64,000 bases of DNA from Kushneria sinocarnis. GTDB lineage: Bacteria > Pseudomonadota > Gammaproteobacteria > Pseudomonadales > Halomonadaceae. The position numbers and the translations under genes were made by a program. Below the pieces are notes generated by a model, which saw nothing but the letters and a program-made list of their open reading frames with translations, was not told where the DNA came from and did not search any database. The stretch lies in assembly GCF_003633775.1 (NCBI RefSeq), contig NZ_RBIN01000003.1, positions 186,001 through 250,000 of the forward strand. The letters are read 5' to 3'. Positions 2,518 through 31,611 of this stretch are shown here, piece after piece (positions within the stretch are counted from its first letter, which is position 1; each line of letters opens with the position of its first letter).

Positions 2518-2532
2518 CCGTGCAACCCGGTG

Positions 2533-2943
2533 TCAGGCGTAATGCCTGGCCGTGGCATAGATGCGATCGAGCATTGCATGCAGCCCGTTGCTGCGGGTCG
2601 ATGAAAGGTGCTTGTCCAGCCCCAGCTCGGCCAGAAAATCGGGCGAGGTTTCGACGATCTCGCCGGGTGTGCGGTCATTGTAGATCCGCATCAGTACGGC
2701 GATCAGTCCCGAGACGATGGCGGCATCGGACGTGGCCTGAAAGTGCAGCTGCTCGCCCTGTGCTTCATGATGCATCCAGACCTTTGACTGACAGCCCTCG
2801 ATCCGGGTGTGCTCTGTCTTCAGTTCATCCGGAAATGCCGGCAGCTGGCGGCCCATGTCGATGATGTACTGATAGCGATCCATCCAGTTGTCGAACATGT
2901 TGAACTCGTCAACCAGTTCCGCTTGCGCTTGTTGCAGGCTCAT
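2533..2943 (-). CDS. sufE: Cysteine desulfuration protein SufE family
   Basis: Accepts persulfide sulfur from a cysteine desulfurase (SufS or CsdA) and passes it on for Fe-S cluster or tRNA sulfur chemistry. The protein has 136 residues, the family's normal size. The acceptor cysteine is C51 in RIEGCQSKVW, followed by the hydrophobic core and a C-terminal GLHAMLDRI helix. The start is fixed by an AGGAGG site five bases before the ATG. It lies 28 bases downstream of the recombinase gene on the same strand, so it may share its transcript. SufE and CsdE cannot be told apart from this sequence, and no sufS or csdA is nearby. Confidence 0.88.
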   Translation of the reverse strand: MSLQQAQAELVDEFNMFDNWMDRYQYIIDMGRQLPAFPDELKTEHTRIEGCQSKVWMHHEAQGEQLHFQATSDAAIVSGLIAVLMRIYNDRTPGEIVETSPDFLAELGLDKHLSSTRSNGLHAMLDRIYATARHYA

Positions 2944-2971
2944 TCTGCCTCCTGAATCGATGTCTCCCTGA

Positions 2972-17419: not shown

Positions 17420-20158
17420 TCAGTCGCGCAGGTTCTCGAGCCGATGACGCTGCCAGTCACTGCGAGGCTCATTGAGCCTCAGCGAAAGCTCCAGCATCTG
17501 CTCTTCGGGAATCAGACGCACCCGGAACCCGAGCTTTTCGACCAGACGGCGCATGCCCCGGTTGTCAGCGCGCACCTCACCGACCATTTCCAGCGTGCCC
17601 ACGCTGCGACAGTAGTCGATCAGCTTTTTCATCAGCCGCTGGCCCAGCCCAACCCCCTGCAGGTCATCGCGAATGATGATGGCGAATTCGGTGCGAATGT
17701 TGTCGGGATCGTTCCATACCCGGCTGATGCCCAGCATATATTTCTCTCCCTGCGGGGCGTGATACTCCGCCAGGAAGGCCATCTGCCGGTCATAATTGAG
17801 CTGGGTCAGTTCGGCAAGCTCGCGCTCGCTCAGCGTCGCCTTGTGATGGAAGTAGCGGTAGCGGATACTCTGCTCGGAGAGATGGGTGTGAAATTCGCGA
17901 ATCAGATCGGCATCCTCGCCGCGGACCGGGCGCAGCGTGACCGGCCAGCCATTGGCCAGCACGACCTGCTCACGAAGCTCTTCGGGGTACGGCATGATGG
18001 CATGATGCGCCGGTTCGCCGAGATCCAGGGCAAAGTCGACAGCCAGCAGTTGCTCGCGATTGAGCAGCAGCGGATTGATTTCCAGACCGCGCAGCTCCGG
18101 CAGATCGGTACACATCTGGGACAGTCGGGTCAGCAGTATGGCCAGCCGTTCGAAGTCCCGCTCCGGTTCGGGAGAGTGCTCGCGGATCAGGGTGGCGGCA
18201 TGGGAAGAGTCGATCAGATGGTGGGCGAGGTTCATGTTCAGGGGTGGCAGGGCAATACAGCGATCACTCATGACATCGGCTCGATAGCCACCCAGTCCGA
18301 ACACGATCACCGGTCCGAAAACCGCATCCCGGGTGATGCCGACAGCCAGTTGGAGGGATTGCTTGCCGCGCTGCATCGGCTGCATGCAGTAGCTGTAGAT
18401 CCCTTCGCCGGGCATGGCAGCCTCGACCCGCTCCTTCAGTACCCGAATCCCTTCGGTGACAGCTTCGGGAGTATCAAGATCCTGCAGCAGATCCGGAGCC
18501 GGACGGTCCGGGCGTCGATCGGCACGGAAGGGCAGGCAGTTGCTGCGATGCACGGCCTTGAGTGCCACCGGGTGTTCGAGCTCGTAAAAGCGCCTTCTGC
18601 CCTCCTCGGCCGATTGCACATAGAGTGCGGGCGCCGTGGCAATCCCGTAGGCGCGCAGGGCCATGGCGGTCTCTTCATGGGTCAGGCGGTCCCGGCCACG
18701 CCGATGGGCATCATCGATCAGCTCATGACAGCGCTGTCGCACCATTTCTGAAGTATCGAACGCCAGCGCCGGTGGGGTCTGGTGCAGCAGTGACTGTACG
18801 CGCTGATACTCGATGTTCAGCATGAAGGCCCGCACGGCCTTTTCAGGAGAGACGTGGGTGGCCAGGCCCACGCGATGGCAGGCATCCCGTGCCGGGCGCG
18901 CGGTGGCCAGGCCCATCCAGCTGGTAAACAGGGTAACGGAGGTATGCCGCCAGAACTCGATGACGGCCTCGGCGAGTTCCACCGAAGGCGCCATGCGCGT
19001 CGGAGCGTGAATCAGTAGCACGGCATCCACCCCCTCATCGCCTGCCAGCAGTTCCAGGGCACGTACGAAACGCTGGGGTGTGGCATCGCTGCCCAGGTCA
19101 ATCGGATTGCGTCCCGGCAGGCTGTGATCCAGCCCTTCCGCCCCGAGCAGCCTGCGGGTAGTGTCGCTGAACTCGGCCACCTTGCCACCCTGTTCAAACA
19201 GTCGATCCAGCGCCAGCATCGCCGGCCCCAGCCCGTTGGACAGAATCGCCAGACGCGGTCCACGGGGGCGGGCCCGCGGCCGGCTGAGCACTTCGAGTGC
19301 CTCGAACAGTTCATCACTGTCCGACACCCGCACTACCCCGGCTCTTGCCAGCGCGGCATCGAAGACCCGGTCCCGGTGCTCGATGCCCGGGGTAGCCACC
19401 ATCGAAGCGGTCTCGGTCTGCGCCGTTCGGCCGCTCTTGATGGCCAGTACCAGCCGCCGGCGTGATGCTTCACGCAGCGCCGTCATGAAATGCATGGCGT
19501 CGAAGATATACTCGACATGAATGATCAGCGCCCGGGCACTGCCCTGATGATTATTGAGGTAATCGATCAGATCCGGCAGTCGCACATCGATGCTTTCGCC
19601 CAGCGTGACCAGATGGGAGAGCCCCAGTCCGCGACCCGCAGCCCAGTCGATCATGGCGCTGCCGAGCATGCCGGACTGGCCCAGATAAGCCACGCGCCCA
19701 TGTTCGAGTGCAGTCGTGGCGTAGGTGGCATTGAAACGCCGGGCCGGTACAGCCAGACCCCGACACTCCGGCCCCAGCACGCGTACTCCAGCCTGCAGGG
19801 CAGCCTTCAGCAGACGCGGATAGCACTCCGGGTCATCCTCGCGTGGCGGTCCGGAAAACACCATGGCGGCTCGGATGCCGTGCTCGCCCAGCTGCGTCAG
19901 AATGGACTCGACTGCATCGATGGGGGCGCAGACAATCGCCAGGTCCGGGGTCTCCGGCAGCTGATCGAAAAAGGCGTGTGAGACGATGCCTTCAGGCAGC
20001 GCTGCCGGTTCCAGCGCCACGGCATCCATGCGGCCGGTAAAGCCCGCCTCGACCAGGTTGCGGATGATGGTGATGGCAGTAGCGTCATCCCCGGCCACCG
20101 GACCGACCACGACCAGTGAACGAGGTTCGAAGAAGTAGCGCAGGAACCGGGTGCCCAT
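17420..20158 (-). CDS. Protein lysine acetyltransferase of the Pat/PatZ (YfiQ) type
   Basis: A 912-residue enzyme that matches E. coli PatZ closely along its length, expected to acetylate lysines of targets such as acetyl-CoA synthetase. Order of domains: CoA-binding Rossmann domain (about 8-130), succinyl-CoA-ligase-like domain (about 150-450), ATP-grasp-like domain (about 480-715) and a C-terminal GNAT acetyltransferase (about 735-895). The GNAT acetyl-CoA loop is visible in the LQGVGLGQRLMKKL segment. The acyl-CoA-ligase-like part is regulatory in known Pat proteins, not catalytic. Transcribed alone; its upstream neighbour is divergent. Confidence 0.9.
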   Translation of the reverse strand: MGTRFLRYFFEPRSLVVVGPVAGDDATAITIIRNLVEAGFTGRMDAVALEPAALPEGIVSHAFFDQLPETPDLAIVCAPIDAVESILTQLGEHGIRAAMVFSGPPREDDPECYPRLLKAALQAGVRVLGPECRGLAVPARRFNATYATTALEHGRVAYLGQSGMLGSAMIDWAAGRGLGLSHLVTLGESIDVRLPDLIDYLNNHQGSARALIIHVEYIFDAMHFMTALREASRRRLVLAIKSGRTAQTETASMVATPGIEHRDRVFDAALARAGVVRVSDSDELFEALEVLSRPRARPRGPRLAILSNGLGPAMLALDRLFEQGGKVAEFSDTTRRLLGAEGLDHSLPGRNPIDLGSDATPQRFVRALELLAGDEGVDAVLLIHAPTRMAPSVELAEAVIEFWRHTSVTLFTSWMGLATARPARDACHRVGLATHVSPEKAVRAFMLNIEYQRVQSLLHQTPPALAFDTSEMVRQRCHELIDDAHRRGRDRLTHEETAMALRAYGIATAPALYVQSAEEGRRRFYELEHPVALKAVHRSNCLPFRADRRPDRPAPDLLQDLDTPEAVTEGIRVLKERVEAAMPGEGIYSYCMQPMQRGKQSLQLAVGITRDAVFGPVIVFGLGGYRADVMSDRCIALPPLNMNLAHHLIDSSHAATLIREHSPEPERDFERLAILLTRLSQMCTDLPELRGLEINPLLLNREQLLAVDFALDLGEPAHHAIMPYPEELREQVVLANGWPVTLRPVRGEDADLIREFHTHLSEQSIRYRYFHHKATLSERELAELTQLNYDRQMAFLAEYHAPQGEKYMLGISRVWNDPDNIRTEFAIIIRDDLQGVGLGQRLMKKLIDYCRSVGTLEMVGEVRADNRGMRRLVEKLGFRVRLIPEEQMLELSLRLNEPRSDWQRHRLENLRD

Positions 20159-20299
20159 GCTCCCCTCCTACAGCGTTGAGCGGCATACTCTGCCAGTATG
20201 TCGGCATGAGCTGATGAGCACCACCCTGTTACGGCCCGTTCATACCGATCTGCCCCTGCATGCTGGTGCCGCCGGGGCATGGCGACGGAGGGAGAGAGC

Positions 20300-21247
20300 A
20301 TGATCACGTCCTGGATCAGTGACCGTCAGCATGTCCGGCACCACATGGGCGCCGGACATCCCGAGAGCCCGGAGCGCCTGGCCGCCATCGAGCAGCGCCT
20401 CAATGCCAGTGGCGTGCTCCATCATGCCGTACAGTTCGCGGCACGTCCGGCTACCGATGAACAGATCCTGCAGGTACATTCGGCGCAGTACTGGCAGCAG
20501 TTGTTGCATCAGACACCTGCCGAAGAGGGCGAGCTGACAGCCCTGACCTCGGATACCCTGCTGACTCCCTGGAGTGTCGAGGCTGCCCGCATGGCGGCGG
20601 GTGCAGCCATTCGCGGCATCGATCAGCTCTATCGCGGACAGGCCGACAATGTCTTCTGTGCCGTCCGTCCGCCCGGCCATCATGCCGAGCGCAGCGGCGC
20701 CATGGGGTTCTGCCTGATCAACAATGTTGCCATTGCCGCAGCCCATGCCCGTCTCGTCTACGGGGTCGAACGCATTGCCATCCTCGATTTCGATGTCCAT
20801 CAGTGCAACGGCACCATCGATATTTTCCGACACGACCCCGGGGTGCTGGTCTGCTCAAGCTTCCAGGAAGGTCTGTTCCCGCAGCGCTACCATCAGGCGC
20901 CCTCCGCGAACGTGATCAATACCCCGCTCGCGGAGGGCAGCAACGGTGATGCCCTGCTGGCCGCCATCGAGCGTGAATGGCTGCCGGCACTGGAGCGTCA
21001 TCGCCCGCAACTGATCTGCATCAGTGCCGGTTTCGATGCCCATCGCGATGATCCACTGGGAGGGCTGAGCCTGAGCGGCACGGATTTTCATCGGATATCG
21101 CGTCTGCTGGTCTCGCTGGCCGGCGAGTACAGTGAGGGGCGCCTGCTATCGGTACTGGAAGGCGGCTACGAGATGAATGCGCTGGCCGAAGGGGTCGAAG
21201 CCCATCTGGCGGCGCTGCTGGACATGCCATGGTCGCCTGCAAGCTGA
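20300..21247 (+). CDS. Histone deacetylase family amidohydrolase
   Basis: A 315-residue zinc-dependent amidohydrolase of the HDAC/AcuC/AphA superfamily, which removes acyl groups from lysine or polyamines. Active-site pieces in order: RPPGHHAE (H127, H128), zinc ligands D165 and H167 in DFDVHQCNGT, D246 in SAGFDAH, and Y290 in LEGGY. The usual HHGNGT after the zinc Asp reads HQCNGT here, a subfamily difference that keeps both zinc ligands. The ATG follows a GGAGGGAGAG site. It is divergent from the Pat-type acetyltransferase, so the two might write and erase acetylation; that link is inference. Confidence 0.9.
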   Translation: MITSWISDRQHVRHHMGAGHPESPERLAAIEQRLNASGVLHHAVQFAARPATDEQILQVHSAQYWQQLLHQTPAEEGELTALTSDTLLTPWSVEAARMAAGAAIRGIDQLYRGQADNVFCAVRPPGHHAERSGAMGFCLINNVAIAAAHARLVYGVERIAILDFDVHQCNGTIDIFRHDPGVLVCSSFQEGLFPQRYHQAPSANVINTPLAEGSNGDALLAAIEREWLPALERHRPQLICISAGFDAHRDDPLGGLSLSGTDFHRISRLLVSLAGEYSEGRLLSVLEGGYEMNALAEGVEAHLAALLDMPWSPAS

Positions 21248-21324
21248 ATGCCCCCGTCTCGGACGCTGGGCGACCTGACTCGAGTATGTCACGATGAAAG
21301 CATGTGTCCCTGATTGATAGCCTG

Positions 21325-21951
21325 ATGAGCGATAGCAATGAATCGGCCATGCCGCCGGGGCTGATGACCGATCCCGACGGTCTCGTGGAGCCCCTGCGCC
21401 TGGGTGAACGGCTGCGCGCCATTCGTCGCGCACAGCGCTGGACACTGGAAGACGTGCGCCAGCGTACCGGCGTTGCACGCTCTACCCTTTCCAAGATCGA
21501 AAATGATCAGCTCTCGCCCACCTTTACGGTGGTACAGAAGCTGATCAATGGGCTCGACATCGATCTTCCCCAGCTGCTGCGACAGCCGCCCCGACCACCG
21601 CAGCGCACGGGGCGGCGCGATCTGGATCGTGCCGGTCAGGGTCGTCTTCATCCTACGCCGACCTATGAACATGAACTGCTGGCCGGCCGGCTGGAACACA
21701 AGCACATGGTGCCCTTCAAGACCGTGGTGCGGGCTCGTGAAATCAGTGAGTTTACCGACTGGGTCCGCCACGGCGGCGAGGAATTCCTGCTGATTCTGGA
21801 AGGAGCCATTCTGCTCTATAGCGAGGCGCATGAAACGCTGCAGCTCGACTGCGGCGACAGCCTTTATTTCGACAGCAGCGTGGGGCACGCCAAGGTCTCG
21901 ATCAGTCCGCAGGATGCCGTCGTGCTTTCGGTCTGTACCGATGCCGACTGA
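21325..21951 (+). CDS. XRE-family regulator with C-terminal cupin domain
   Basis: A 208-residue transcription regulator. Residues about 25-80 form a helix-turn-helix domain (LGERLRAIRR, VRQRTGVARSTLSKIENDQLSPT). Residues about 125-205 form a small cupin barrel with GGEEFLLILEG and CGDSLYFDSSVGH motifs. Such proteins sense small metabolites and repress neighbouring uptake or catabolic genes. The ATG at 21325 is preferred; a GTG at 21304 would add seven residues, and neither has a strong ribosome site. It follows the HDAC-family gene by 77 bases and may control it. The ligand is unknown. Confidence 0.85.
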   Translation: MSDSNESAMPPGLMTDPDGLVEPLRLGERLRAIRRAQRWTLEDVRQRTGVARSTLSKIENDQLSPTFTVVQKLINGLDIDLPQLLRQPPRPPQRTGRRDLDRAGQGRLHPTPTYEHELLAGRLEHKHMVPFKTVVRAREISEFTDWVRHGGEEFLLILEGAILLYSEAHETLQLDCGDSLYFDSSVGHAKVSISPQDAVVLSVCTDAD

Positions 21952-22050
21952 TCCGGCTCATGGCAGGCCGGTCCGGCTTGCCAGCCGGCTCATTGGTGCC
22001 ACAATCCCGGACAGATTGCCGTATTCGGCTTCATCGCCACGGAGAAAGTC

Positions 22051-22377
22051 ATGCAACATCTTGATAACGCTACCCGCACCGAAATAGAAGCGGCGGCCTT
22101 CCGTCAGCTACTGGCTCATCTGGATGCCAACAAGGATGTGCAGAACATCGACCTGATGATCCTGGCTGACTTCTGTCGCAACTGCCTTTCCAAATGGCTG
22201 GTGGCAGCAGCCGGCGAGCGCGGTATCGAACTCGAATATGAAACGGCGCGCGAGTATGTCTACGGCATGCCCTATCAGCAGTGGAAGTCGCTCTATCAGC
22301 AGCCGCCTTCCGAGGAGCAGCTGGCGGCGCTGAAAGCCCGTCAGGAAAGCCACGAGGAAAGCGGAGCGCATCAATGA
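22051..22377 (+). CDS. DUF1244 family protein
   Basis: A 108-residue soluble protein of the DUF1244 family, with the conserved NIDLMILADFCRNCLSKW stretch (about residues 32-49) and the ETAREYVYGMPYQQWK block (about 64-79). The two cysteines of CRNC are a conserved pair and might bind a metal or form a disulfide. The ATG has a GGAG site ten bases upstream. Its TGA overlaps the moaB ATG by four bases, so the two are translationally coupled. No function is established that the sequence would show. Confidence 0.85.
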   Translation: MQHLDNATRTEIEAAAFRQLLAHLDANKDVQNIDLMILADFCRNCLSKWLVAAAGERGIELEYETAREYVYGMPYQQWKSLYQQPPSEEQLAALKARQESHEESGAHQ

Positions 22378-22907
22378 GCGCCATCGAGGAGGGGTTCATA
22401 CCACTGTCGGTGGCCGTATTGACCATCTCCGACACCCGCACCGTCGATACCGATCGTTCGGGCCGATTGCTGATCGATCGACTCGAAGGCGCAGGTCACC
22501 GGCTGGAAAAGCGCGAAATCATTCCTGACGATCCTTATCGCATTCGCGCCCGGGTCGCGGACTGGATCGCCGATCCGGCCGTCCAGGTCATTCTGACAAC
22601 CGGCGGTACCGGCTATACCGGGCGGGACTCGACGCCCGAGGCTGTCAGTGTCCTGTTCGATCGCCCCATCGAGGGTTTCGGCGAGCTGTTTCGCCAGCTC
22701 TCGCGCGAGGATGTAGGCAGTTCGACGGTTCAGAGCCGGGCGCTGGCCGGCATGGCCAACGGCACGGTCATCTTCTGTCTGCCCGGGTCGACCGGGGCCT
22801 GCCGCACCGGCTGGGAACGCATTCTCCACGAGCAGCTCGACTCCCGGCATCAGCCGTGCAATTTCGCCAATCTGGTCATCCCGGGGCGCGAACAGCATGG
22901 CAGCTGA
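22374..22907 (+). CDS. moaB: Molybdenum cofactor biosynthesis protein MoaB
   Basis: Adenylates molybdopterin (MogA-like step) before metal insertion. The 177-residue protein has the MoCF/MogA fold: VAVLTISDTRT near the N-terminus, the TTGGTGYTGRDSTPEA substrate loop (about residues 65-80) and the FCLPGSTGACRTGWE segment (about 135-149). The start overlaps the DUF1244 stop and its own stop overlaps moeA by 11 bases, which marks a tight DUF1244-moaB-moeA operon. Confidence 0.94.
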   Translation: MSAIEEGFIPLSVAVLTISDTRTVDTDRSGRLLIDRLEGAGHRLEKREIIPDDPYRIRARVADWIADPAVQVILTTGGTGYTGRDSTPEAVSVLFDRPIEGFGELFRQLSREDVGSSTVQSRALAGMANGTVIFCLPGSTGACRTGWERILHEQLDSRHQPCNFANLVIPGREQHGS

Positions 22908-24120
22908 AGCGAGACATGAAGGATTGCACGATCCGGCCACGGCCCTGACAGCGCTGCTGGATGGGGTGATGGCTCTGGAGAGTGAATCGGTAGCGCTGAC
23001 CCAGGCACACGGGCGTACCCTGGCCGATACGGTGACCGCACTGATGGATACCCCGCCGGCCGACAACAGTGCCATGGATGGCTATGCCATTCGAGCGGCC
23101 GATGCCGGACGCACCCTACCCGTCTCACAGCGCATTCCGGCCGGCCATGCGCCTGCGCCACTGGCTCCGGGGACCTGTGCCCGCATCTTCACTGGTGCAG
23201 TCATCCCCGAAGGGGCCGATAGCGTGGTGCGTCAGGAAGTGGTCGAGGAGAGCGCTGAAGGCGCCGCGATACCCGGGCCGGTGACGGCAGGCAACAGTGT
23301 GCGACGGCGCGGCCGGGAGATGCAGCGCGGGGCCACCCTGCTGGAAGCCGGCACACGCCTGAACGCAGCTGCCGTGGGCTTTCTGGCCAGCCAGGGGTAC
23401 GACCGGGTGGCGGTTCGACGGCGACCGCGGGTCTCGCTGCTGGTCACCGGTGACGAGCTGGTAGAACCCGGCAGGCCGCTCTCGCCGGGGCAGATCTACA
23501 ACTCCAACGCGCCGATGCTGGCCGCCCTGCTGTCCGAATTCGGGGCCGAGGTGGTGGCGAGCCGGCATGTGGCGGACAGCCTTGATGCCACCGTAGCCGC
23601 ACTGGCTGACGCCGCCGAGGGGTCGGATGTCGTGGTCACCAGTGGCGGCGTCTCGATCGGCGAAGAGGATCATGTACGCAATGCCCTGCAGCAGTTGGGC
23701 ACGCTCGATCTCTGGCGTCTGTCGATCAAGCCCGGCAAGCCGCTGGCCCTTGGGCGGATCAAACGGGGCAATGGTGGCGAAACCCGTTTCGTGGGTCTGG
23801 CCGGCAATCCGGTATCCAGCTATGTCGGGGCCTGGCTGTTTCTTCGCCCCCTGATGGGCGCCCTGCTGGCCCGGCCGGATCAGGCTGCGCTGCCGGCTCT
23901 GCGCGCGCGCGCGGGGTTCGAAACGAGCACCGAGCGGCGGGCCAACTACATGCGAGTCTCGCTGACGATCGAGGACGATCAGCTGGTGGCCCATGCCTTT
24001 GCCGACCAGGACTCCTCGGTGCTGCATTCCTGTGTTCAGGCTGATGGGCTGGCGGTGATTCCGGCCTGGCATGAGATCGCCCCGGGTGACATGATCGACG
24101 TCCTGCGCCTGCAGCCCTGA
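22897..24120 (+). CDS. moeA: Molybdopterin molybdenumtransferase MoeA
   Basis: Inserts molybdate into adenylated molybdopterin to give the active cofactor. The 407 residues show all MoeA parts: the PPADNSAMDGYA loop (about 50-61), IFTGAVIPEGADSVVRQE (about 98-115), the catalytic MoCF-like domain with TSGGVSIGEEDH (about 248-259) and KPGKPLALG, and the C-terminal beta-barrel domain from about 325. It overlaps moaB by 11 bases. No molybdoenzyme is encoded in the window, so the end user lies elsewhere. Confidence 0.96.
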   Translation: MAAEARHEGLHDPATALTALLDGVMALESESVALTQAHGRTLADTVTALMDTPPADNSAMDGYAIRAADAGRTLPVSQRIPAGHAPAPLAPGTCARIFTGAVIPEGADSVVRQEVVEESAEGAAIPGPVTAGNSVRRRGREMQRGATLLEAGTRLNAAAVGFLASQGYDRVAVRRRPRVSLLVTGDELVEPGRPLSPGQIYNSNAPMLAALLSEFGAEVVASRHVADSLDATVAALADAAEGSDVVVTSGGVSIGEEDHVRNALQQLGTLDLWRLSIKPGKPLALGRIKRGNGGETRFVGLAGNPVSSYVGAWLFLRPLMGALLARPDQAALPALRARAGFETSTERRANYMRVSLTIEDDQLVAHAFADQDSSVLHSCVQADGLAVIPAWHEIAPGDMIDVLRLQP

Positions 24121-24174
24121 GCCGGCAGGCCCGAGCCTGTTTCGAAACGGAATGAGCAGTTCACGGAGTGAACC

Positions 24175-24942
24175 ATGATGGCGGGAAGTCGGCGGCTGAT
24201 GACGCTTGGTATACTGGGCATGATGGCGGCTGTGCCCGCACTGGCTGAAGAAAATGCACCCCAGGTGCGGGAGTGGTCCTGGTCCGGCGACACCGGACCG
24301 GAGCACTGGTCAACCATCAACCCGAATTATGAAACCTGCGGTACCGGCAGCAACCAGTCGCCGGTCGATCTCGGAGACTCCCTGAAAGTGGCCGGGCTTG
24401 CTGCCCCCGAGATCAGTTATGACCAGCCACTGCTGGTGGTCAGACGGGAAAGCACCGGCCTGATGATCGAAGGGCCGGCGGATAATACGGTTACCCTGCA
24501 TGGCCATATCTATACGCTGGCGCGCATCGAGTTTCATGCCCCGGCTCAGCACAGCGTCGAGGGTGAGCGCGCTGCCATGGAGATCGATTTCATCCATACC
24601 GATGAAACCGAGCAGACCCTGGTCATGGCGGTGCTGGTCAGGGAGGGGGAAGCCTCGCAGGCCCTTGACCGGATCTGGAGTCGGGTGCCCGATGTCGATC
24701 GCTCGATGACTCTCAACGGGGAAATGCTGCCATCCCGGCTGCTGCCCCGGGAGCGAAATGGCTGGTCCTACAACGGTTCACTGACCACCCCACCGTGCAG
24801 CGAGGGGGTGCGCTGGTGGGTCATGAAATCGCCGATTCATGCTTCCCGGGCCCAGATCGAGCGCTATCGCCAGTGGTTTGACGTCGATACGGCTCGGCCG
24901 ACCCAGCCGCTCAACGCGCGTTACGTGCTTGAGCAGCAGTAG
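24175..24942 (+). CDS. Alpha-carbonic-anhydrase-like periplasmic protein with altered zinc ligands
   Basis: A 255-residue secreted protein with a signal peptide (cleavage likely after PALA, residue 24) and the alpha-carbonic anhydrase fold: WSWSGDTGPEHW, NQSPVDL (60-66) and YNGSLTTPPCSEGVRWWV (199-216). C55 and C208 match the family disulfide. The three zinc histidines are not all kept. The first of the HFH pair is E119 (RIEFH), the second is H121, and the third is D138 (MEIDFIH). The usual proton-shuttle position also lacks histidine. It may bind a different metal, or be an inactive relative like the animal carbonic-anhydrase-related proteins. It overlaps the convergent acpH end by 32 bases. 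Confidence 0.85.
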   Translation: MMAGSRRLMTLGILGMMAAVPALAEENAPQVREWSWSGDTGPEHWSTINPNYETCGTGSNQSPVDLGDSLKVAGLAAPEISYDQPLLVVRRESTGLMIEGPADNTVTLHGHIYTLARIEFHAPAQHSVEGERAAMEIDFIHTDETEQTLVMAVLVREGEASQALDRIWSRVPDVDRSMTLNGEMLPSRLLPRERNGWSYNGSLTTPPCSEGVRWWVMKSPIHASRAQIERYRQWFDVDTARPTQPLNARYVLEQQ

Positions 24943-25516
24943 TCACGCGGCATTCATCACGCAGGCTCAGCATATCCGGCCACAGGTCCCGAAAGGCAGC
25001 GGCCAGCGTGGCGCGATGGGCGCGAATCCAGGGCAGCAGCTGTGCCAGCCGATTGACGCCTGTCAGGCGCTCCCCCAGACCACTGATCGCCTGGCAGGTA
25101 AAATCGAAATCGGCATAGCTTGATAACCAGTCATGCCGGCGCAGCAGTGAAATGGTGGTCGCCACACGCGGCGGCACCTGCTGCTCCCCCTGTTCCAGCA
25201 CCCGATAGCTGCGTTCGATCAGAGCCCTGCCGGCGGGTTCGGCAAGACAGTCTTGTGCCAGAAAATGGTCCCACAGCAGATCAAAGGCGATGCCGGCCAC
25301 TCGCCGTTCCGGCCCCTCGATCCGGCGCCTGAGGGCAATCACGGTGGGATGATGGTCGATGGTGGCATCAACGCGCCGATGATGACGAATGCCCAGGGCA
25401 ATATCCTGCGGCCATTCGTACAAGCGACTGCCGCGCACCCCATCGGCGATCAGATTACCGAAGAGAAAGCCGTCACTGCCCGGCTCGGCCAGTACCGCAT
25501 GTGCCAGAAAATTCAT
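24911..25516 (-). CDS. acpH: Acyl carrier protein phosphodiesterase AcpH
   Basis: Removes the 4'-phosphopantetheine arm from acyl carrier protein. The 201-residue protein follows E. coli AcpH from the opening MNFLAH through GNLIADGVRG (about 23-32), IRHHRRVDATIDHHP (about 46-60), FDLLWDHFLAQ (about 80-90) and YADFDFTCQAISG. This is an all-helical HD-type metal site, with ligands among the H and D residues of those motifs. The chosen start is the conserved MNFLAH; an in-frame TTG 13 codons upstream is less likely. The last 32 bases overlap the convergent carbonic-anhydrase-like gene. Confidence 0.92.
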   Translation of the reverse strand: MNFLAHAVLAEPGSDGFLFGNLIADGVRGSRLYEWPQDIALGIRHHRRVDATIDHHPTVIALRRRIEGPERRVAGIAFDLLWDHFLAQDCLAEPAGRALIERSYRVLEQGEQQVPPRVATTISLLRRHDWLSSYADFDFTCQAISGLGERLTGVNRLAQLLPWIRAHRATLAAAFRDLWPDMLSLRDECRVTTAAQARNAR

Positions 25517-25558
25517 GGCCTGTTCCAGGAGTGCCGTATCGTCATGCCGCTTCAACCA

Positions 25559-25906
25559 TTATAGGCAGTTGGTCGGTTTCGGCAGTCCGGCCAGCCGTGC
25601 CACCACCCGTGCCGGACTCTCCGGAAACAGGGTCATCAGATAGACCGAGCGCCCCTGCTCCTCACCGAGTGACTGGCGCACCAGCTTGACCAGCGCTCGC
25701 ATGGCGGGAGCCATTTCATAGCGTTCATAGAACGCCCGCACCAGCTCGATGATGGCCCAGTGCCGCTCATCCAGTGTACGGCCTTCGTGCTCGGCCAGTA
25801 TCCGGGTAACCGCAGGCGTCCATTCGGCGGGATCGAGCAGATAGCCCTCTTCATCCAGCATGACGCAATGGTCCCCGATATCGAGCCGTCGATTGTCTTC
25901 CGTCAT
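25559..25906 (-). CDS. tusE: Sulfurtransferase TusE (DsrC family)
   Basis: Final relay protein of the Tus pathway that hands persulfide sulfur to MnmA for 2-thiouridine in tRNA. The 115-residue protein has the DsrC fold with GYLLDPAEWTP (about residues 21-31) and the penultimate active cysteine C114 in KPTNCL. The second C-terminal cysteine of true dissimilatory DsrC is absent, as expected for TusE. It is the last gene of tusD-tusC-tusB-tusE, three bases after tusB. Confidence 0.93.
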   Translation of the reverse strand: MTEDNRRLDIGDHCVMLDEEGYLLDPAEWTPAVTRILAEHEGRTLDERHWAIIELVRAFYERYEMAPAMRALVKLVRQSLGEEQGRSVYLMTLFPESPARVVARLAGLPKPTNCL

Positions 25907-25909
25907 CGG

Positions 25910-26230
25910 TCAGAACCAGCTGATAATGTGTCGGCAGCGTTCAGTCAGCGCAACGAACCCCTTCATGTCGACCCGCTGTACATCCTGTGCGATTTCAAGC
26001 AGGTGCAGGCCGCGCGCCCGGAGATCCTCCTCGAGCACATGCAGGCGTTCACCCAGCGCAATCAGGCGTTCGGGGGGATGGGCAAGGCTTGTGACCCCAT
26101 CCTCGATCAGCAGTACCTGATCATGCGCGCCCAGCGCACTCATCATATCTTCCCAGACCCGATGGCCATGAGTGGCGCGATTGAGCAGATGCAGACTGGC
26201 TTCGGCCGAAGGCGCGTGTTGCTCTGTCAT
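25910..26230 (-). CDS. tusB: Sulfurtransferase complex subunit TusB
   Basis: Subunit of the TusBCD heterohexamer that takes sulfur from TusA and passes it to TusE. The 106-residue DsrH-like protein shows SLHLLNRATH near the N-terminus, DQVLLIEDGV (about 37-46) and the short C-terminal ISWF typical of TusB. It has a slightly longer N-terminus than E. coli TusB (95 residues). It sits between tusC and tusE with short gaps. Confidence 0.88.
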   Translation of the reverse strand: MTEQHAPSAEASLHLLNRATHGHRVWEDMMSALGAHDQVLLIEDGVTSLAHPPERLIALGERLHVLEEDLRARGLHLLEIAQDVQRVDMKGFVALTERCRHIISWF

Positions 26231-26245
26231 GGACTCCCCGCTTGG

Positions 26246-26605
26246 CTAGAAATTCAGCACCAGATCACTCTGCGCGATCAATTCGGCCGGCTCCGCCGGC
26301 CCGGTGTCACAAGCCAGCTGCGAGCGGCGCAGGCCCAGATGTTCGAGTGACGCATCAGTCACGTGAAGCTGCTCGATATCATACATCGGCAGCACGTCGA
26401 TCATGGCGCCGGTACCCTTCTGGCCGAGCGGCCCACTCTGCTGGGCAGGCAGCAGCGCCAGCACGCCCTCGCCCATGAACAGCAGCGAGATGGATTGCCC
26501 CAGTGCCGCGCCGACCAGCGCCGTCTCCAGGGCCTCACGGACCCAGCTCGAGCCGGTCGGCGAATGGCGAATGATGATCAGAAGCCGCTGTACATTTTCA
26601 CTCAT
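26246..26605 (-). CDS. tusC: Sulfurtransferase complex subunit TusC
   Basis: Second subunit of the TusBCD sulfur-relay complex. The 119-residue DsrF-like protein begins with LLIIIRHSPTGSSWVREALETAL (in the region of residues 8-30), has the QSISLLFMGEGV strand-loop, and ends in SDLVLNF, as is typical. It is spaced 12 bases from tusD upstream and 15 bases from tusB downstream on the same strand. Confidence 0.9.
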   Translation of the reverse strand: MSENVQRLLIIIRHSPTGSSWVREALETALVGAALGQSISLLFMGEGVLALLPAQQSGPLGQKGTGAMIDVLPMYDIEQLHVTDASLEHLGLRRSQLACDTGPAEPAELIAQSDLVLNF

Positions 26606-26617
26606 CGGAATCCACCT

Positions 26618-27010
26618 TCAGGGCGCAAAGGTCAGCAGCCGGTCATGGGTCAGGCCGGCCTCGATCAGCTGTCCCAGTCCGGTCAGTTCGAACGGCGCTT
26701 CAAGCGTATGAGCCTCCCGCTCATGGCGCTGCGCTTCGCGCTGATCCAGCAGGCCTCGCCTGAGTCCCGAGGCGACGCAGACCAGCAGCTGTGTCTGCTG
26801 CTGGTCATGCAGTTCACACCAGCGCTCGAGCAGGTGTGGCTCATCGCGCGGAGGGGTCATCAGCCGGGATGCATTATAGACCCCATCGTGATAGAAAAAG
26901 ACCGTCCCCACCCGATGGCCACGCGCCGGCAGTGCCATGGCAAAGCGTAACGCAGAATGGGCGGCCTGTTGGCTGTAGGGGGCCCCCATCACCAGCAAGG
27001 CGTAATTCAT
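26618..27010 (-). CDS. tusD: Sulfurtransferase complex subunit TusD
   Basis: Catalytic subunit of TusBCD, carrying the persulfide on a conserved cysteine. The 130-residue DsrE-like protein has YALLVMGAPYS at the N-terminus, VFFYHDGVYNA (about 38-48) and the active cysteine in LLVCVASGLRRG (about residue 78). The start MNYALLVM is the family start; eight upstream in-frame residues lack support. It is the first gene of the tus operon, behind a hairpin that separates it from yccA. Confidence 0.92.
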   Translation of the reverse strand: MNYALLVMGAPYSQQAAHSALRFAMALPARGHRVGTVFFYHDGVYNASRLMTPPRDEPHLLERWCELHDQQQTQLLVCVASGLRRGLLDQREAQRHEREAHTLEAPFELTGLGQLIEAGLTHDRLLTFAP

Positions 27011-27033
27011 CGGTAACGGCATCTCCTCATGCA

Positions 27034-27065
27034 ATGGCCCCGCATCCTTGCAGATGCGGGGCCAT
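27034..27065 (-). terminator. Hairpin between yccA and tusD
   Basis: A perfect 13-bp stem (ATGGCCCCGCATC with GATGCGGGGCCAT) and a 6-base loop, 35 bases after the yccA stop. There is no clear T-run on either side. It probably ends or attenuates yccA transcripts before the tus operon. Confidence 0.7.
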
Positions 27066-27099
27066 CAGGTTACTCCGTTCGGCGCTTCCATGCAGCAGA

Positions 27100-27765
27100 T
27101 CAGTCGTCGGACATGATCCCGAGAATCGACAACAGGCTGACGAAGAGGTTGTAGATCGCCACATACAGTGAAATGGTCGCGAGAATATAGTTGGTCTCAC
27201 CACCATTCACGATACGGCTGGTTTCGAACAGGATCATTGCCGAGGCAAACAGCACGAAACCGGCCGAGACGGCCAGCGCCAGGGCAGTGATCTGGAAAAT
27301 CATCGCAGCGACCATGGCCAGGATCAGCACGATGGCGCCGGCCATGATGAAATTGCCGAGGAAACTGAAATCCTTGCGCGTTACCAGCGCGACAGCGGAG
27401 AGCCCCACGAAGGTCAGCCCGGTCATGCCCAGTGCCATGCCGACGATCTGCCCGCCATTGGGCAGGGAAAGGTAGAGATTGAGCATCGGCCCGAGCGTAA
27501 AGCCCATGAAGGCCGTAAAGGCGAAGATGGCTGCCAGCCCGGCAGCGGAATCCTTGCACTTGTGGACCAGAAACATCAGCCCATAGGCGCCGATCAGGAA
27601 GATGAAGATATTCATCTGTCCGACACCCATCGCCATGGCGGTCCATGCCGACGCTGCCGAAACGAGCAGCGTCATCGACAGCAGCATGTAGGTATTGCGC
27701 AATACCTTGTTATTCGACAGCGAACCGGTATTCGTCTGCGAAATATCGTAGGTTCTGTTGGCCAT
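27100..27765 (-). CDS. yccA: BAX inhibitor-1/YccA family membrane protein
   Basis: Inner-membrane protein with seven membrane segments, 221 residues, like E. coli YccA, a modulator of the FtsH protease. The N-terminus (MANRTYDISQTNTGSLSNNK) is polar and cytoplasmic. Helices follow from about residue 25 to the C-terminal LSILGIMSDD, with the family NGGETNYILATISLYVAIYNLF region near the end. The start has an AGGAGAG site. Gene order yccA then tusDCBE resembles E. coli, where yccA lies beside tusE. Confidence 0.92.
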   Translation of the reverse strand: MANRTYDISQTNTGSLSNNKVLRNTYMLLSMTLLVSAASAWTAMAMGVGQMNIFIFLIGAYGLMFLVHKCKDSAAGLAAIFAFTAFMGFTLGPMLNLYLSLPNGGQIVGMALGMTGLTFVGLSAVALVTRKDFSFLGNFIMAGAIVLILAMVAAMIFQITALALAVSAGFVLFASAMILFETSRIVNGGETNYILATISLYVAIYNLFVSLLSILGIMSDD

Positions 27766-27849
27766 TCTGGCTCTCTCCTGGGTACCCTGGTTCAGGCATT
27801 GGCGGAACACAGCATGCCCGCTTCGTTACGGACTCTGCAAGGAGCCGGC

Positions 27850-27877
27850 TTGACGGGACGCGGGTGGCTGGTATGAT
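27850..27877 (+). promoter_or_regulatory. Promoter of tRNA-Ser
   Basis: TTGACG (27850-27855) and TATGAT (27872-27877) are 16 bases apart, placing a transcription start about ten bases before the tRNA. This is one of the best sigma-70 matches in the window. Confidence 0.8.
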
Positions 27878-27892
27878 TGCTCGCCGTGAGCC

Positions 27893-27982
27893 GGAGGGAT
27901 GGCAGAGTGGTCAATTGCACCGGTCTTGAAAACCGGCAGGGGTTAACGCCCCTCCAGGGTTCGAATCCCTGTCCCTCCGCCA
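27893..27982 (+). tRNA. tRNA-Ser (anticodon UGA)
   Basis: A 90-base class II tRNA. Acceptor stem GGAGGGA pairs with TCCCTCC, followed by discriminator G and an encoded CCA. The anticodon loop CTTGAAA between CCGGT and ACCGG gives UGA. A long variable arm (GGGGTTAACGCCCC) and the T-loop GTTCGAAT are all visible. It reads UCA and UCG serine codons. Confidence 0.97.
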
Positions 27983-28021
27983 CCTGCTCTTCTTTCTCCC
28001 CATCGCCCGCCTGGCCGATGG

Positions 28022-28045
28022 GGTTGCAGCCGGCAACCGTTTCTT
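28022..28045 (+). terminator. Likely terminator of tRNA-Ser
   Basis: A 6-bp stem GGTTGC/GCAACC with a 5-base loop is followed by GTTTCTT, 40 bases after the tRNA end. Confidence 0.55.
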
Positions 28046-28338
28046 GCCGTGCCCTGCCATCCTTCTGCACCTCAAGCTGATTGATTTCACGCCTTCGGTC
28101 AACATGACATCAAGCTGCACCTAAGCTTGGCGATGTGGGCAATGGCCATTGCCGTCATGCTCATCAAGGAACCCCATGCTGACACTGGCATGCCGTTCTG
28201 CTCCGAAAGATGTATTTCCAGTTCCTGTCATCTGCCTGACACTCCGGAGTCATCTGCTTAAAAGCCTACAGTCACTGTAAAGGACATACTGATGCTGAGT
28301 AGGCAGTTCCATTGCGCAGGGTTCAGGGAGCTGCAGAC
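28046..28338. other. Intergenic stretch with a 13-base palindrome
   Basis: No convincing gene was found. The perfect palindrome TACAGTCACTGTA (28267-28279) lies about 60 bases before the small membrane gene at 28339, where an operator would be expected. A 34-codon reading from ATG at 28176 has a ribosome-like AAGGAA but no other support. Confidence 0.4.
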
Positions 28339-28443
28339 ATGATGTATCTGGCGGGTTATCTTCTTACAGTGTCCTTCATGGGTGTGTTCGTGCTGGGAGC
28401 ACTCAAGGTGAGATCGGGAAGCGGCCATTACATGGAGGAGTAG
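28339..28443 (+). CDS. Small single-span membrane protein, 34 residues
   Basis: ATG at 28339 follows CAGGGAG at a good distance. The peptide is MMYLAGYLLTVSFMGVF, continuing VLGALKV and a short charged tail ending HYMEE. Residues 3-23 form one clear membrane helix. A strong terminator hairpin starts 25 bases after the stop. Ribosome site, helix and terminator together make a real small gene likely. No family is recognised. Confidence 0.55.
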   Translation: MMYLAGYLLTVSFMGVFVLGALKVRSGSGHYMEE

Positions 28444-28468
28444 GCTCACCTGCTCCAATCGGTTGCTG

Positions 28469-28501
28469 CAGGGGCCCGCTTTTGCTGATAGCGGGCCCCT
28501 G
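28469..28501. terminator. Strong hairpin between two convergent small genes
   Basis: A perfect 12-bp stem (CAGGGGCCCGCT with AGCGGGCCCCTG) and a 9-base loop. It lacks a long T-run but lies between the ends of the 34-residue membrane gene and the zinc-ribbon gene, so it may serve both. Confidence 0.7.
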
Positions 28502-28522
28502 CCGTGATGAGCCAGCCACTGT

Positions 28523-28738
28523 TCAGCCGGCCACGATCTCGGTGTGACCACAGTTCCAGCAATGCCACTCATGACCATCCGCAGTGCGCGAAACGCAATC
28601 GTCCCAGCGGCAGGCCGGACAGCGCAGGGTGGCATCAAAGATGTCCTCGCAGCGGACGGCGTGGTAGTGGTCCGTGCTGACGAACGACGCTTCAGCTGTC
28701 GGCCGCGGCGGGAGGCGGGCTACACCATGCTCGGCCAC
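28523..28738 (-). CDS. Small zinc-ribbon-like protein
   Basis: A 71-residue reading whose C-terminal part has two cysteine pairs, CPAC (about residues 40-43) and CWNC (about 59-62), set in a WHCWNCGHTEIVAG context typical of zinc ribbons. The N-terminal 30 residues show no motif. The start shown is a GTG without a clear ribosome site, so the true start may differ. It is convergent with the small membrane gene. Function is unknown; nucleic-acid or protein binding would be guesswork. Confidence 0.5.
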   Translation of the reverse strand: MAEHGVARLPPRPTAEASFVSTDHYHAVRCEDIFDATLRCPACRWDDCVSRTADGHEWHCWNCGHTEIVAG

Positions 28739-29066
28739 GGCGCGGTCGTGGCCGGGTCTGGCGATGGTGTTTTCGCCCTGAAGAGTGATGTGACAAACGG
28801 AGTGGTCGGCTTGTTTTATATTTCAGACTGATACGTTAATAGTACTCAGCGATACACTGGCGACTTCCTGATAACTGATTTTGACATCAGCGAAGTCTTC
28901 CGGGTAACCCCGGCACCTTATATCAGAATATTTAGATAATATGAAATTTTTCCGGGTCCTGTTCCTGTTTCCGGGGTGCCCCGAACCGGCTCGCGACCCA
29001 TGAGCATTGCAGGCCGATCGCGTCTTGCCTAACCTTCGGATGACCATTCGAGTCAGGGGATAGATC
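28739..29066. other. Gene-free AT-rich stretch with promoter-like boxes
   Basis: A drop in G+C is visible at about 28800-28960. TTGACA (28880-28885) and GATAAT (28935-28940) look like promoter elements but are not paired at a standard spacing. The region probably holds the control signals for the gene at 29067. No protein with support is seen on either strand. Confidence 0.4.
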
Positions 29067-29300
29067 ATGACAGGTGATAAAGGACGCGGCTTCACCCGTG
29101 GCAACATGAATCGCGAAGGCTTCCATGAGGAAGGTCGAATGTTCAGTCCCGGCGATCGCCCCGGACATGCCGGTGAGTTTCAGGAGTGTGATTCACAGGG
29201 TAATCTGCTTGATCAGGAACATCGTATCCAGCTCGACAGTGATGATGAGTCCCTTCCCGACACCTGGCACAAGAACAATCTCTGGAAGATGATGAACTGA
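29067..29300 (+). CDS. Hypothetical hydrophilic 77-residue protein
   Basis: A soluble, strongly charged protein with Gly/Arg-rich residues in the first half (TGDKGRGFTRGNMNREGF), an acidic stretch QLDSDDESLPDTW and a KNNLWKMMN end. The ATG follows CAGGGGAT. A hairpin lies 30 bases downstream. Low-complexity hydrophilic proteins of this type often belong to stress responses, but no family is recognised. Confidence 0.55.
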   Translation: MTGDKGRGFTRGNMNREGFHEEGRMFSPGDRPGHAGEFQECDSQGNLLDQEHRIQLDSDDESLPDTWHKNNLWKMMN

Positions 29301-29330
29301 CTTCTGGCAAGGCAACCTGTACTTTTTCCG

Positions 29331-29354
29331 CGCCTCCGGCATATGCCGGAGGCG
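29331..29354. terminator. Hairpin downstream of the 77-residue gene
   Basis: A perfect 10-bp stem CGCCTCCGGC/GCCGGAGGCG with an ATAT loop and no T-run. It lies 32 bases before the start of the next gene. Confidence 0.6.
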
Positions 29355-29385
29355 TCATATCGGGCCCCATCACGGAAGGAAACCA

Positions 29386-29853
29386 ATGCGCCCCGCCCTG
29401 ATGATTTCAGCCATGAGTCTGGCTCTGTTGAGCGGTTGTGCCGGCCTGGAGCATGACACCACGCATACTCCCTACGCCGAGCAGCCCCCCGTACAGGCCC
29501 GTGCCAGTGGCACGCTGAACTGTAACGACTGCCCTGCCCGGCCGGTAGAGCTGACGCTCTATTCGGCCACCCGCTTCGATCCCGAAAGCTTTCGGCTGAC
29601 CCTGGCCGGTGCCGATGGCACTTCGGCCACCAATGCCGACTTCCAGCCTGCCAGTGGCAGTGTGTTTCGTATCAGTGGCGGACAGCAATATCCCGATCAA
29701 CAGCTGCTGATGCTGGTGGAGCCCATCAATCAGCAGGTCATGATGCTGCTGCCCATGCAGGATCAGCGCTACCGGGTGCTGCGCTACAGGGGGCAATCCG
29801 TCACGGGCTCGTCGATGCTGACCCCCGTACAGGCGCGATCGGCCACACGCTAG
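29386..29853 (+). CDS. Putative lipoprotein, 155 residues
   Basis: The N-terminus MRPALMISAMSLALLSGCAG is a lipoprotein signal with lipobox LLSGC, so C18 should be lipidated. The mature part holds a second cysteine pair (LNCNDCPARPVELTLYSA) and a beta-rich body of about 100 residues ending in MLTPVQARSATR. Residue D is absent at the position after C18, which favours outer-membrane sorting. A GGAAGGAAAC site precedes the ATG. No family is recognised with confidence. Confidence 0.75.
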   Translation: MRPALMISAMSLALLSGCAGLEHDTTHTPYAEQPPVQARASGTLNCNDCPARPVELTLYSATRFDPESFRLTLAGADGTSATNADFQPASGSVFRISGGQQYPDQQLLMLVEPINQQVMMLLPMQDQRYRVLRYRGQSVTGSSMLTPVQARSATR

Positions 29854-29901
29854 ACGCCGATTCTCGTCCGGTCACTTCACGCCGACAGCTGCATGGCCGT
29901 T

Positions 29902-31611
29902 TCAGCCATGCAGCCTGAGTCCGACACGCAGCACCCGGTTGCCCTCCACTTCCTGAACAATCCAGTGAATGCCGTGCCAGTCGATGTCATCGCCCACTAC
30001 CGGATTACCGCCCACCCGTCTCGAAACGAACTCACCCAGCGTATGATCACGCTCGCCGGCTGACAGGGTCAGACCGTAGGCATCGGCGATATCCGCCATT
30101 GTGGCGCTGCCGTCGAGTGAAAAGGCGCCGTAGAAATCACGCTCCCGCTTGAGCTCGGCTTCGCCGTTGAATAGACGGTTGAGCGCAGGCAGATCGGCTG
30201 TTCTGCCGATCATGCAGGCAATGTCTCCGGCCTGGGGGCGCGTGCTGCCCTTGGGGTGAATCATGGTATGACCGCGAAACAGGGCAGCCATGGTGGAGCC
30301 CGAAGGGAAGCGCAGCATGCGCAGGGGGGTATTTTCCACCCGGTGGCTATCGATCCGATAGACAAACATCTCATAGTCGTCCTCGGGCAGAATGCCCAGC
30401 AGCCGACGTCTTGCCGGTGCCACCCCGGGAGGAAGTATGACCTTCAGTCGTCGTGCAACGGGTCCCAGCGTGGTTCCCTGCAGCATCAGTGAAATCAGCA
30501 CCACAAAGAAGGCAATATTGAAATAGAGTGAGGCGTTCGAAACCCCGGCGATTACCGGGAAGATGGCCAGCACGATAGGCACCGCACCACGCAATCCCAC
30601 CCAGGCAATGAAGAACAGTTCACGCCAGCGAAAACCGAAAAAGGGTCTCAGGCAGGCCAGTACGGCCAGCGGGCGAGCCACGAAAATCAGCGTCAGGGCC
30701 ACCAGGATGCCCGGCACGGCATAATCGATCATCTCACTGGGGGTAACCAGCAATCCCAGCGTCAGAAACAGGCCGATCTGGCTGAGCCAGGCAAGCCCGT
30801 CATGTACCGGCAGGATGAACTCCAGATGCCGGCCGCGGGTGTTGCCGATCATCAGCCCGGCAAGATAAATGGCCAGAAAGCCACTTCCGCCCATCAGGTT
30901 GGTCACCGAAAACAGCACGAATCCCATGGCGGCCGTCAGCAGTGAATAGAGCCCGGGGGCGAGATCCAGCCACTTGAGCAGTCGCGCCAGCAGCAGCCCC
31001 CCTCCGATGCCGACCAGCAGTCCGACACCGAACTGGCCGACGAACAGCCAGAGGCTGTCGACCACACCCCTGCCGGTGCCGGTCAGCAGCTCTGACAGCA
31101 ACAGGGTCAGGAAAATCGCCATCGGGTCATTGGTGCCTGATTCGATCTCAAGCGTGGCGCCTACACGTTCGTTGAGATGAATGCCCTGGCGACCCAGCAT
31201 GGAAAAGACGGCGGCAGCATCGGTGGAGCCCACGATGGCACCGACCAGCAGTCCCTGCAGCAGGCTGAGATCGAAGGCCCACATCGCAATCAGACCAGTC
31301 AGGCCACTGGTGATGAACACCCCGAGCGTGGCCAATGACAGCGCCGGTCGAAGCCCGACCCGGAAGGTTTTCATGCGTGTGCGCAACCCCCCGTCGAGCA
31401 GGATCATGGCCAGAGCCATCTGTCCGATCAGATAGGCCTGCGAGTAATCCTGGAAATCGATGCCGCCTATACCATCGACACCGGCCAGCATGCCGATGCC
31501 CAGAAACAGGGGAAGCAGGGGCATGCCCATCCTGGCCGAGAGCCGGCTGGCCAGAATGCTCAGCGTCAGCAGTAGTCCACCGATCAGGAAAAGGCCGTTG
31601 AAATCACTCAC
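29902..31611 (-). CDS. K+/H+ antiporter of the NhaP2/CvrA family
   Basis: A 569-residue cation:proton antiporter (CPA1 family) with about 12 membrane segments in the first 390 residues. The ion-binding region appears as GSTDAAAVFSML and ESGTNDPMAIFLT (about residues 128-170). Two soluble C-terminal modules follow: a TrkA-C-like domain (about 400-485) and a CorC/HlyC-type transporter-associated domain (about 490-569), the architecture of NhaP2/CvrA. The start codon is GTG. Such proteins expel excess potassium or sodium at the expense of the proton gradient, fitting a salt-adapted host. Confidence 0.92.
   Translation of the reverse strand: MSDFNGLFLIGGLLLTLSILASRLSARMGMPLLPLFLGIGMLAGVDGIGGIDFQDYSQAYLIGQMALAMILLDGGLRTRMKTFRVGLRPALSLATLGVFITSGLTGLIAMWAFDLSLLQGLLVGAIVGSTDAAAVFSMLGRQGIHLNERVGATLEIESGTNDPMAIFLTLLLSELLTGTGRGVVDSLWLFVGQFGVGLLVGIGGGLLLARLLKWLDLAPGLYSLLTAAMGFVLFSVTNLMGGSGFLAIYLAGLMIGNTRGRHLEFILPVHDGLAWLSQIGLFLTLGLLVTPSEMIDYAVPGILVALTLIFVARPLAVLACLRPFFGFRWRELFFIAWVGLRGAVPIVLAIFPVIAGVSNASLYFNIAFFVVLISLMLQGTTLGPVARRLKVILPPGVAPARRRLLGILPEDDYEMFVYRIDSHRVENTPLRMLRFPSGSTMAALFRGHTMIHPKGSTRPQAGDIACMIGRTADLPALNRLFNGEAELKRERDFYGAFSLDGSATMADIADAYGLTLSAGERDHTLGEFVSRRVGGNPVVGDDIDWHGIHWIVQEVEGNRVLRVGLRLHG

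Follow-up and report, generated by a model that had tools for sequence, protein, structure and literature searches.

An alpha-carbonic anhydrase relative from a halomonad bacterium with glutamate and aspartate at two zinc-ligand positions

We describe a bacterial relative of the alpha-carbonic anhydrases (CAs) in which two of the three zinc-binding histidines are replaced by acidic residues. Its gene lies at 24175..24942 of the window, the 64,000-nucleotide stretch of Kushneria sinocarnis DNA analysed here, on the plus strand, as do all features below unless stated otherwise. In the encoded protein of 255 amino acids, Glu119, His121 and Asp138 stand at the positions of the zinc ligands His94, His96 and His119 of human CA II. 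The position labels are those of human CA II; the columns themselves were placed by alignment. Inactive relatives of alpha-carbonic anhydrases, whose zinc triad is a textbook invariant, have mostly been described from animals, plants and viruses. On balance, the sequence favours reading the protein as a bacterial carbonic anhydrase-related protein (CARP) that would be inactive as a zinc enzyme and repurposed, with a more acidic pocket. Neither the alpha-CA fold nor the existence of inactive relatives is new in itself. Three things appear to be new: an E-H-D site, a bacterial lineage whose orthologues at the same locus are intact, and the repeated occurrence of such changes. Among the matches listed for titles and abstract starts of the open-licence PMC literature, none described a bacterial alpha-CA that lacks zinc histidines; this is weak evidence that none has been published.

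Protein identity and the altered active site

Profile and fold both place the protein in the alpha-carbonic anhydrase superfamily by homology. The open reading frame matched the Pfam profile Carb_anhydrase (PF00194) with an E value of 2.6e-30 and a score of 106.3 bits, the cut-off being 27, and its best sequence relative in the PDB was 4c3t (phmmer, E 7.5e-50), the nearest structures being bacterial alpha-carbonic anhydrases. An AlphaFold model built from six sequences, with a mean pLDDT of only 63.2, also found 4c3t as its best Foldseek match (E 1.8e-19), and the best 50 rows were all carbonic anhydrases or dioscorin. The ten-residue blocks of the model containing Glu119, His121 and Asp138 had mean pLDDT values of 89, 70 and 83, and residues 204-210, which contain the TTPPC segment, lay below 50. 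No family was matched in an NCBIfam search of the protein. By eye, a Shine-Dalgarno-like GGAG precedes the ATG, and residues 1-24 (24175..24246) form a probable signal peptide that appears to end in PALA; the protein is probably exported to the periplasm. Cys55 (24337..24339) and Cys208, both present in all 14 of the non-canonical rows described below, are presumed to form a disulfide, a pairing that we assume for this protein.

The preliminary description of this DNA had reported that Glu119, His121 and Asp138 replace the three zinc histidines, and the replacement is real. The codons read in the DNA are GAG for Glu119 (24529..24531), CAT for the retained ligand His121 (24535..24537) and GAT for Asp138 (24586..24588). 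When the window protein was aligned with 36 relatives, columns 112-142 were free of gaps in all 37 rows. Glu119 and Asp138 therefore occupy histidine columns, and no neighbouring histidine can substitute for them; a register error with nearby histidines as the ligands is ruled out. The same columns are all-histidine in 168 of 182 near-full-length rows (HHH rows).

Three further changes go beyond the preliminary description. Arg117 (24523..24525) stands at the Gln92 column, which is Gln in 163/168 HHH rows and Arg in the window and loci L002 and L003. Thr94 (24454..24456) replaces the proton shuttle His64, a histidine in 158/168 HHH rows, and Gln125 (24547..24549) replaces Glu106, which is Glu in all 168. 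Retained are the equivalents of Leu198, of Thr199-Thr200 (Thr204-Thr205, 24784..24789, read in the DNA and aligned), of Trp209 and of the second-shell Glu117 (Glu136, codon GAG, 24580..24582), together with both cysteines. The protein thus lacks the histidine triad at 94, 96 and 119 that marks a catalytic alpha-carbonic anhydrase, and of the Glu106-Thr199 gate only the Thr is kept. That it is unlike catalytic alpha-class enzymes, as first proposed, is borne out. As an alpha-CA homologue without one or more zinc histidines, it falls within the definition of a CARP.

Fifty columns reach 85% conservation or more in the 162 canonical rows, and the window departs from consensus at 13 of them. Nine of these departures fall among 16 active-site columns and four among the 34 columns elsewhere (hypergeometric p 0.0016), a p value that is only indicative, as the 16-column set was hand-picked with the changes already in view and having the triad was the criterion for a canonical row. 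Departures are also frequent in some HHH rows, with 20 in L100, 16 in L094 and 12 in L097 over the same 50 columns, so many of them are not peculiar to triad-less rows.

Zinc-hydroxide catalysis requires the triad, and Glu106 and His64 assist it. Loss of carbonic anhydrase function is for this reason the likeliest outcome to expect of such a sequence. An excerpt of Nett et al. (PMC10700139) likewise states that triad changes abolish zinc binding and CA activity. A weakened zinc-dependent carbonic anhydrase, in which Glu119, His121 and Asp138 hold zinc at low affinity, would fit the intact equivalents of Thr199, Thr200, Trp209 and Glu117, and the PDB contains a zinc-binding CA II with one ligand changed (1cvc, by its brief entry description). 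This explanation is improbable given that two ligands and the Gln92, Glu106 and His64 equivalents have all changed, and that Glu106 is invariant wherever the triad is kept (168/168 rows, out of the full 182).

Locus, relatives and selection

Directly upstream of the CA gene, on the same strand and separated from it by a 54-base gap, lies moeA (22897..24120, profile match). This is preceded by a gene matching MoCF_biosynth (22281..22907), syntenic in relatives, which we take to be moaB. An acyl carrier protein phosphodiesterase gene (ACP_PD, 24911..25516, minus strand) is convergent with the CA gene and overlaps its end. The 54-base gap suggests co-transcription with moeA, and a scan between the two genes found no promoter-like site and no terminator-like site on the plus strand. 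A search of 20000-30000 against Rfam returned a tRNA and nothing else.

The closest relative, from a genome of the same genus (G002), is 78% identical and carries the same E-H-D site. The protein of Phytohalomonas tamaricis (G018), a member of the Halomonadaceae according to NCBI, is 56% identical and has E-H-Q. In all three genomes moaB, moeA and the CA gene follow one another on the same strand, with the CA gene facing the gene for ACP phosphodiesterase and a tus-like cluster of DsrC/DsrH/DsrE. A three-row profile matched 35 of 275 family genomes at E 1e-10, and only these three had the altered E-H-D/Q site; the other 32 had H-H-H in 31 cases and D-H-H in one. This last protein (L045 in G030, 2398-3207, minus strand) also has Val at the Thr200 column, and the open reading frame beside it resembles, we believe, a glutaminase. 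The remaining eight genomes in the window's genus gave no alpha-CA match, also at E 0.001, and in them the ACP phosphodiesterase directly follows moeA, without an intervening CA match. An alpha-CA with the H-H-H triad intact follows moaB-moeA in six genomes belonging to a sister genus (g7).

Wider searches did not enlarge the clade. Of 390 order genomes searched with a profile, 13 had a match at E 1e-50, and among these only the window's own row exceeded 202 bits and the 10 newly obtained loci were all HHH; one of the 13 matched places (G1144) was left out of the ligand reading. In genome_contigs, scanned both times with a handful of short peptide patterns, the single protein found no relative and the alignment only P. 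tamaricis. In viral_contigs the single protein again found none, and a wider alignment gave 11 loci, eight of them readable and HHH and three partial. Matches in phage (7 records) and plasmids (193 records) all lay below 60% identity. The seven phage records (six Listeria, one Enterococcus) contain an unannotated alpha-CA-like stretch, with 26-28% identity in the five hits listed (H11-H15). Homologues with E-x-H plus D, which the preliminary description had suggested seeking, do exist in the form of the G002 protein; no broad clade of E-H-D proteins was found, the altered site being seen among the 275 family genomes only in the window, G002 and, as E-H-Q, P. tamaricis.

In a quick maximum-likelihood tree of prokaryote rows only, calculated with the three ligand columns removed, the E-H-D/E-H-Q clade had an SH-aLRT support of 100 and was joined to the six g7 HHH orthologues at 99, so that the window is nested among HHH orthologues of the Halomonadaceae. 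Since the gene is moeA-adjacent both in the three altered genomes and in the six sister-genus genomes with an intact triad, an active-type enzyme appears to have been remodelled in place. The most parsimonious history has an active-type ancestor at this locus, remodelled in the common ancestor of the window and Phytohalomonas and later lost from most of the genus. A site rebuilt in place, with intact sister-genus orthologues beside moeA, makes the steps of such a conversion orderable and testable.

The CA genes of the window and G002 differ with pN 0.125 and pS 0.627, corresponding to dN 0.137, dS 1.359 and dN/dS of about 0.10 (Nei-Gojobori), a rough ratio as dS is near saturation, though the gap between pN and pS is clear; against P. 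tamaricis dS is saturated. For moeA the same pair of genomes gave dN/dS 0.084. The codons at the Glu and Asp ligand columns differ synonymously between the two genomes (GAG/GAA and GAT/GAC). Decay or sequencing error is ruled out by the second genome, the synonymous codon changes and dN/dS, and these results support an alpha-CA relative that is under purifying selection and still maintained. The proposal that this is not simple decay is supported by purifying selection, by the retained core residues and by related genomes that share the state at a conserved locus. A late-stage relic, drifting toward the loss already seen in most of the genus, would account for the absence of the gene from 8/10 genus genomes, where moeA directly faces ACP_PD, and for the loss of several catalytic residues. 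We regard this as very improbable: the frame is intact, dN/dS is near that of moeA, the cysteines and core residues are kept, and the same Glu and Asp occur in two genomes whose proteins are 22% apart. The absence from eight of ten genomes indicates that any function of the protein is dispensable, a point against the CARP reading.

Triad loss among other bacterial relatives

The frequency of such changes was estimated with PF00194 in samples of 369 class genomes (83 with a match) and 398 phylum genomes (62 with a match). Class and phylum rows were combined with 35 family and two order rows into the set of 182, of which 180 are different and each has at least 170 of 226 columns filled. Class-sample fragments from G564 (two), G584 C89 and G296 C3 were left out, and 15 partial segments were excluded (seven H-H-H, one Q-R-Q, one with His119 only, one with Gln119 only and five without the columns). 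The 14 rows lacking the triad read E-H-D (two), E-H-Q, A-H-Q, D-H-Q, K-H-Q, Q-H-Q, R-H-Q, E-R-Q, R-L-Q, R-I-Q, N-H-H, D-H-H and E-H-H, with E-H-D confined to the window and G002. His94 is replaced in all 14, His96 in three and His119 in 11, by Gln in nine rows and by Asp only in the window and G002. Other active-site changes accompany these replacements: Gln92 is replaced in 13/14 non-canonical vs 5/168 HHH rows, and His64 in 11/14 vs 10/168. The tree calls for at least seven changes between the triad and triad-less states, three of them forced by starred branches, with some non-canonical rows on long branches whose placement is unsure. Bacteria have apparently lost the zinc triad several times independently, and the 14 of 182 rows suggest that such losses recur in Pseudomonadota. 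Triad-less proteins of this kind are probably annotated automatically as carbonic anhydrases and may not be.

Several of these relatives have features of their own. In one gammaproteobacterial genus, L090/L215 (G346) and L108/L216 (G588) have D-H-Q and A-H-Q and face a similar open reading frame; another, which we take to be MutY-like, lies some kilobases away. The pair makes up a further lineage without the canonical site. L098 and L099 (G365, G494) combine Arg94 with Leu or Ile at 96, Gln119 and Glu92, the order of Glu and Arg being opposite to that of the window. Six scattered triad-less proteins of the phylum sample (L200, L203, L205, L208, L206 and L176) have Gln at the third ligand column in four cases. 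L147 (G360 C1:1013700-1014500) is alpha-CA-like with Q-R-Q in two open frames and may be a broken gene. Opposite charges at 92/94 were found in five of the 14 non-canonical rows, as R/E in the window clade and as E/R in L098 and L099; with so few cases, a general Arg92/Glu94 ion-pair rule was dropped.

Proposed function and comparison with known systems

In the CARP reading, the catalytic centre of an exported zinc-dependent alpha-CA, encoded just downstream of moaB-moeA, would have been lost before the window lineage and Phytohalomonas separated, as tree and locus support. In their common ancestor Gln92 would have become Arg and His94 Glu, with the His64 loop altered. His119 would then have changed to Gln in one branch and to Asp in the other, the Asp branch also changing Glu106 to Gln, in an order that we infer. 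Without the zinc triad, CO2 hydration by the zinc-hydroxide route would be lost. Arg117 may form an ion pair with Glu119, two positions further along the same strand, on the former zinc wall; the pair would replace the zinc-side packing. The acidic cleft (Thr204-Thr205, Trp214, His121, Glu136, Asp138 and Glu92) could bind a small, probably cationic ligand or a periplasmic partner. Because a cleft without Zn2+ becomes acidic (Glu92, Glu119, Glu136, Asp138), a cationic ligand or a metal would be likelier than the anions bound by canonical enzymes.

The window's genome also encodes two beta-carbonic anhydrases, L056 (G000 C3:178597-179058) and L057 (G000 C1:78235-78687), one of which lies about 7 kb upstream of the window, and these could cover CO2 hydration. 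Together with the replaced zinc ligands and second-shell residues, the dN/dS ratio, the clade at the moeA locus and the recurrent loss of the triad, they support the CARP reading. The preliminary description had raised the option of a binding or structural relative, and it is now favoured by the fact that the equivalents of Glu106, His64 and Gln92 are gone and that the replacements in other triad-less bacterial proteins vary greatly. What weakens the CARP reading is that Glu, His and Asp can all bind metal and that no non-ligand residue stands at these columns in the window or G002; pure silencing need not leave only ligand-type residues.

If the site has instead been re-metallated, Glu119, His121 and Asp138, perhaps with Glu136, would bind Mn, Fe, Zn or Ca as a 2-carboxylate/1-histidine centre, and the protein would be a new metalloenzyme or metal-binding protein. 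Three possible ligands do lie exactly at the ligand columns, and although the Glu and Asp codons both differ synonymously in G002, the two residues are the same there as in the window. PDB 1cvc, going by its short description, is a crystal structure of human CA II with a His2Asp zinc site. Several observations make this reading rather unlikely. The third position is Gln in P. tamaricis, and Gln is a poor ligand for hard metals. Arg117 adjoining Glu119 may neutralise it, the proton-handling Glu106 and His64 equivalents are gone, and other triad-less bacterial relatives have Ala, Lys, Arg, Leu or Ile at ligand columns. It is accordingly with some doubt that we consider a natural conversion of a 3-His zinc site into a 2-carboxylate/1-histidine centre, perhaps with a second shell of Glu136 and Arg117, for a harder metal or for zinc-independent periplasmic chemistry. 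If true, the conversion would count among several independent events in which bacteria repurposed the alpha-CA fold.

The window protein resembles the bacterial alpha-carbonic anhydrases of Thermovibrio (4c3t), Sulfurihydrogenibium (4x5s) and Neisseria (1kop) in sequence, predicted fold, cysteines and the TTPPC segment, and differs from them in that two zinc ligands have been replaced, as have Gln92, Glu106 and the proton-shuttle residue. Like animal CARPs VIII, X and XI, it is an alpha-CA homologue without the full set of zinc histidines. The Gln at position 119 in P. tamaricis presumably resembles that of CARP X. Unlike the animal proteins, it is bacterial, nested among bacterial orthologues and probably periplasmic, and it has Glu94 with Arg92 and Asp119. 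An excerpt of PMC2873310 describes animal CARPs as alpha-CA homologues that lack one or more zinc histidines and are hence inactive. For CA VIII, changing Arg116, which we read as the 94 position, to His is reported to restore activity (PMC7215520, in part), and an interaction with the receptor IP3R1 is mentioned in an excerpt of PMC13253706.

A precedent for altered chemistry comes from plants. PtCAL-1 and PtCAL-2 of Lycopodium alkaloid biosynthesis are described, in the same excerpt of PMC10700139, as secreted alpha-CA-fold proteins in which two or three of the zinc histidines have given way to other residues. They act in alkaloid scaffold formation and lose no activity with a zinc chelator, and the authors there leave the cofactor open. 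The window protein shares with them the alpha-CA fold, the replaced zinc histidines and probable secretion, and the plant proteins differ from it in having known substrates, the alkaloids. With this precedent, new chemistry is a realistic possibility. Finally, the window protein is like the engineered CA II variants 1cvc (His2Asp-Zn) and 1h9n (H119N), as summarised in their PDB entries, in having another residue at a zinc-ligand position. Those variants carry single laboratory substitutions, whereas the window protein has two natural ones together with changes in the second shell.
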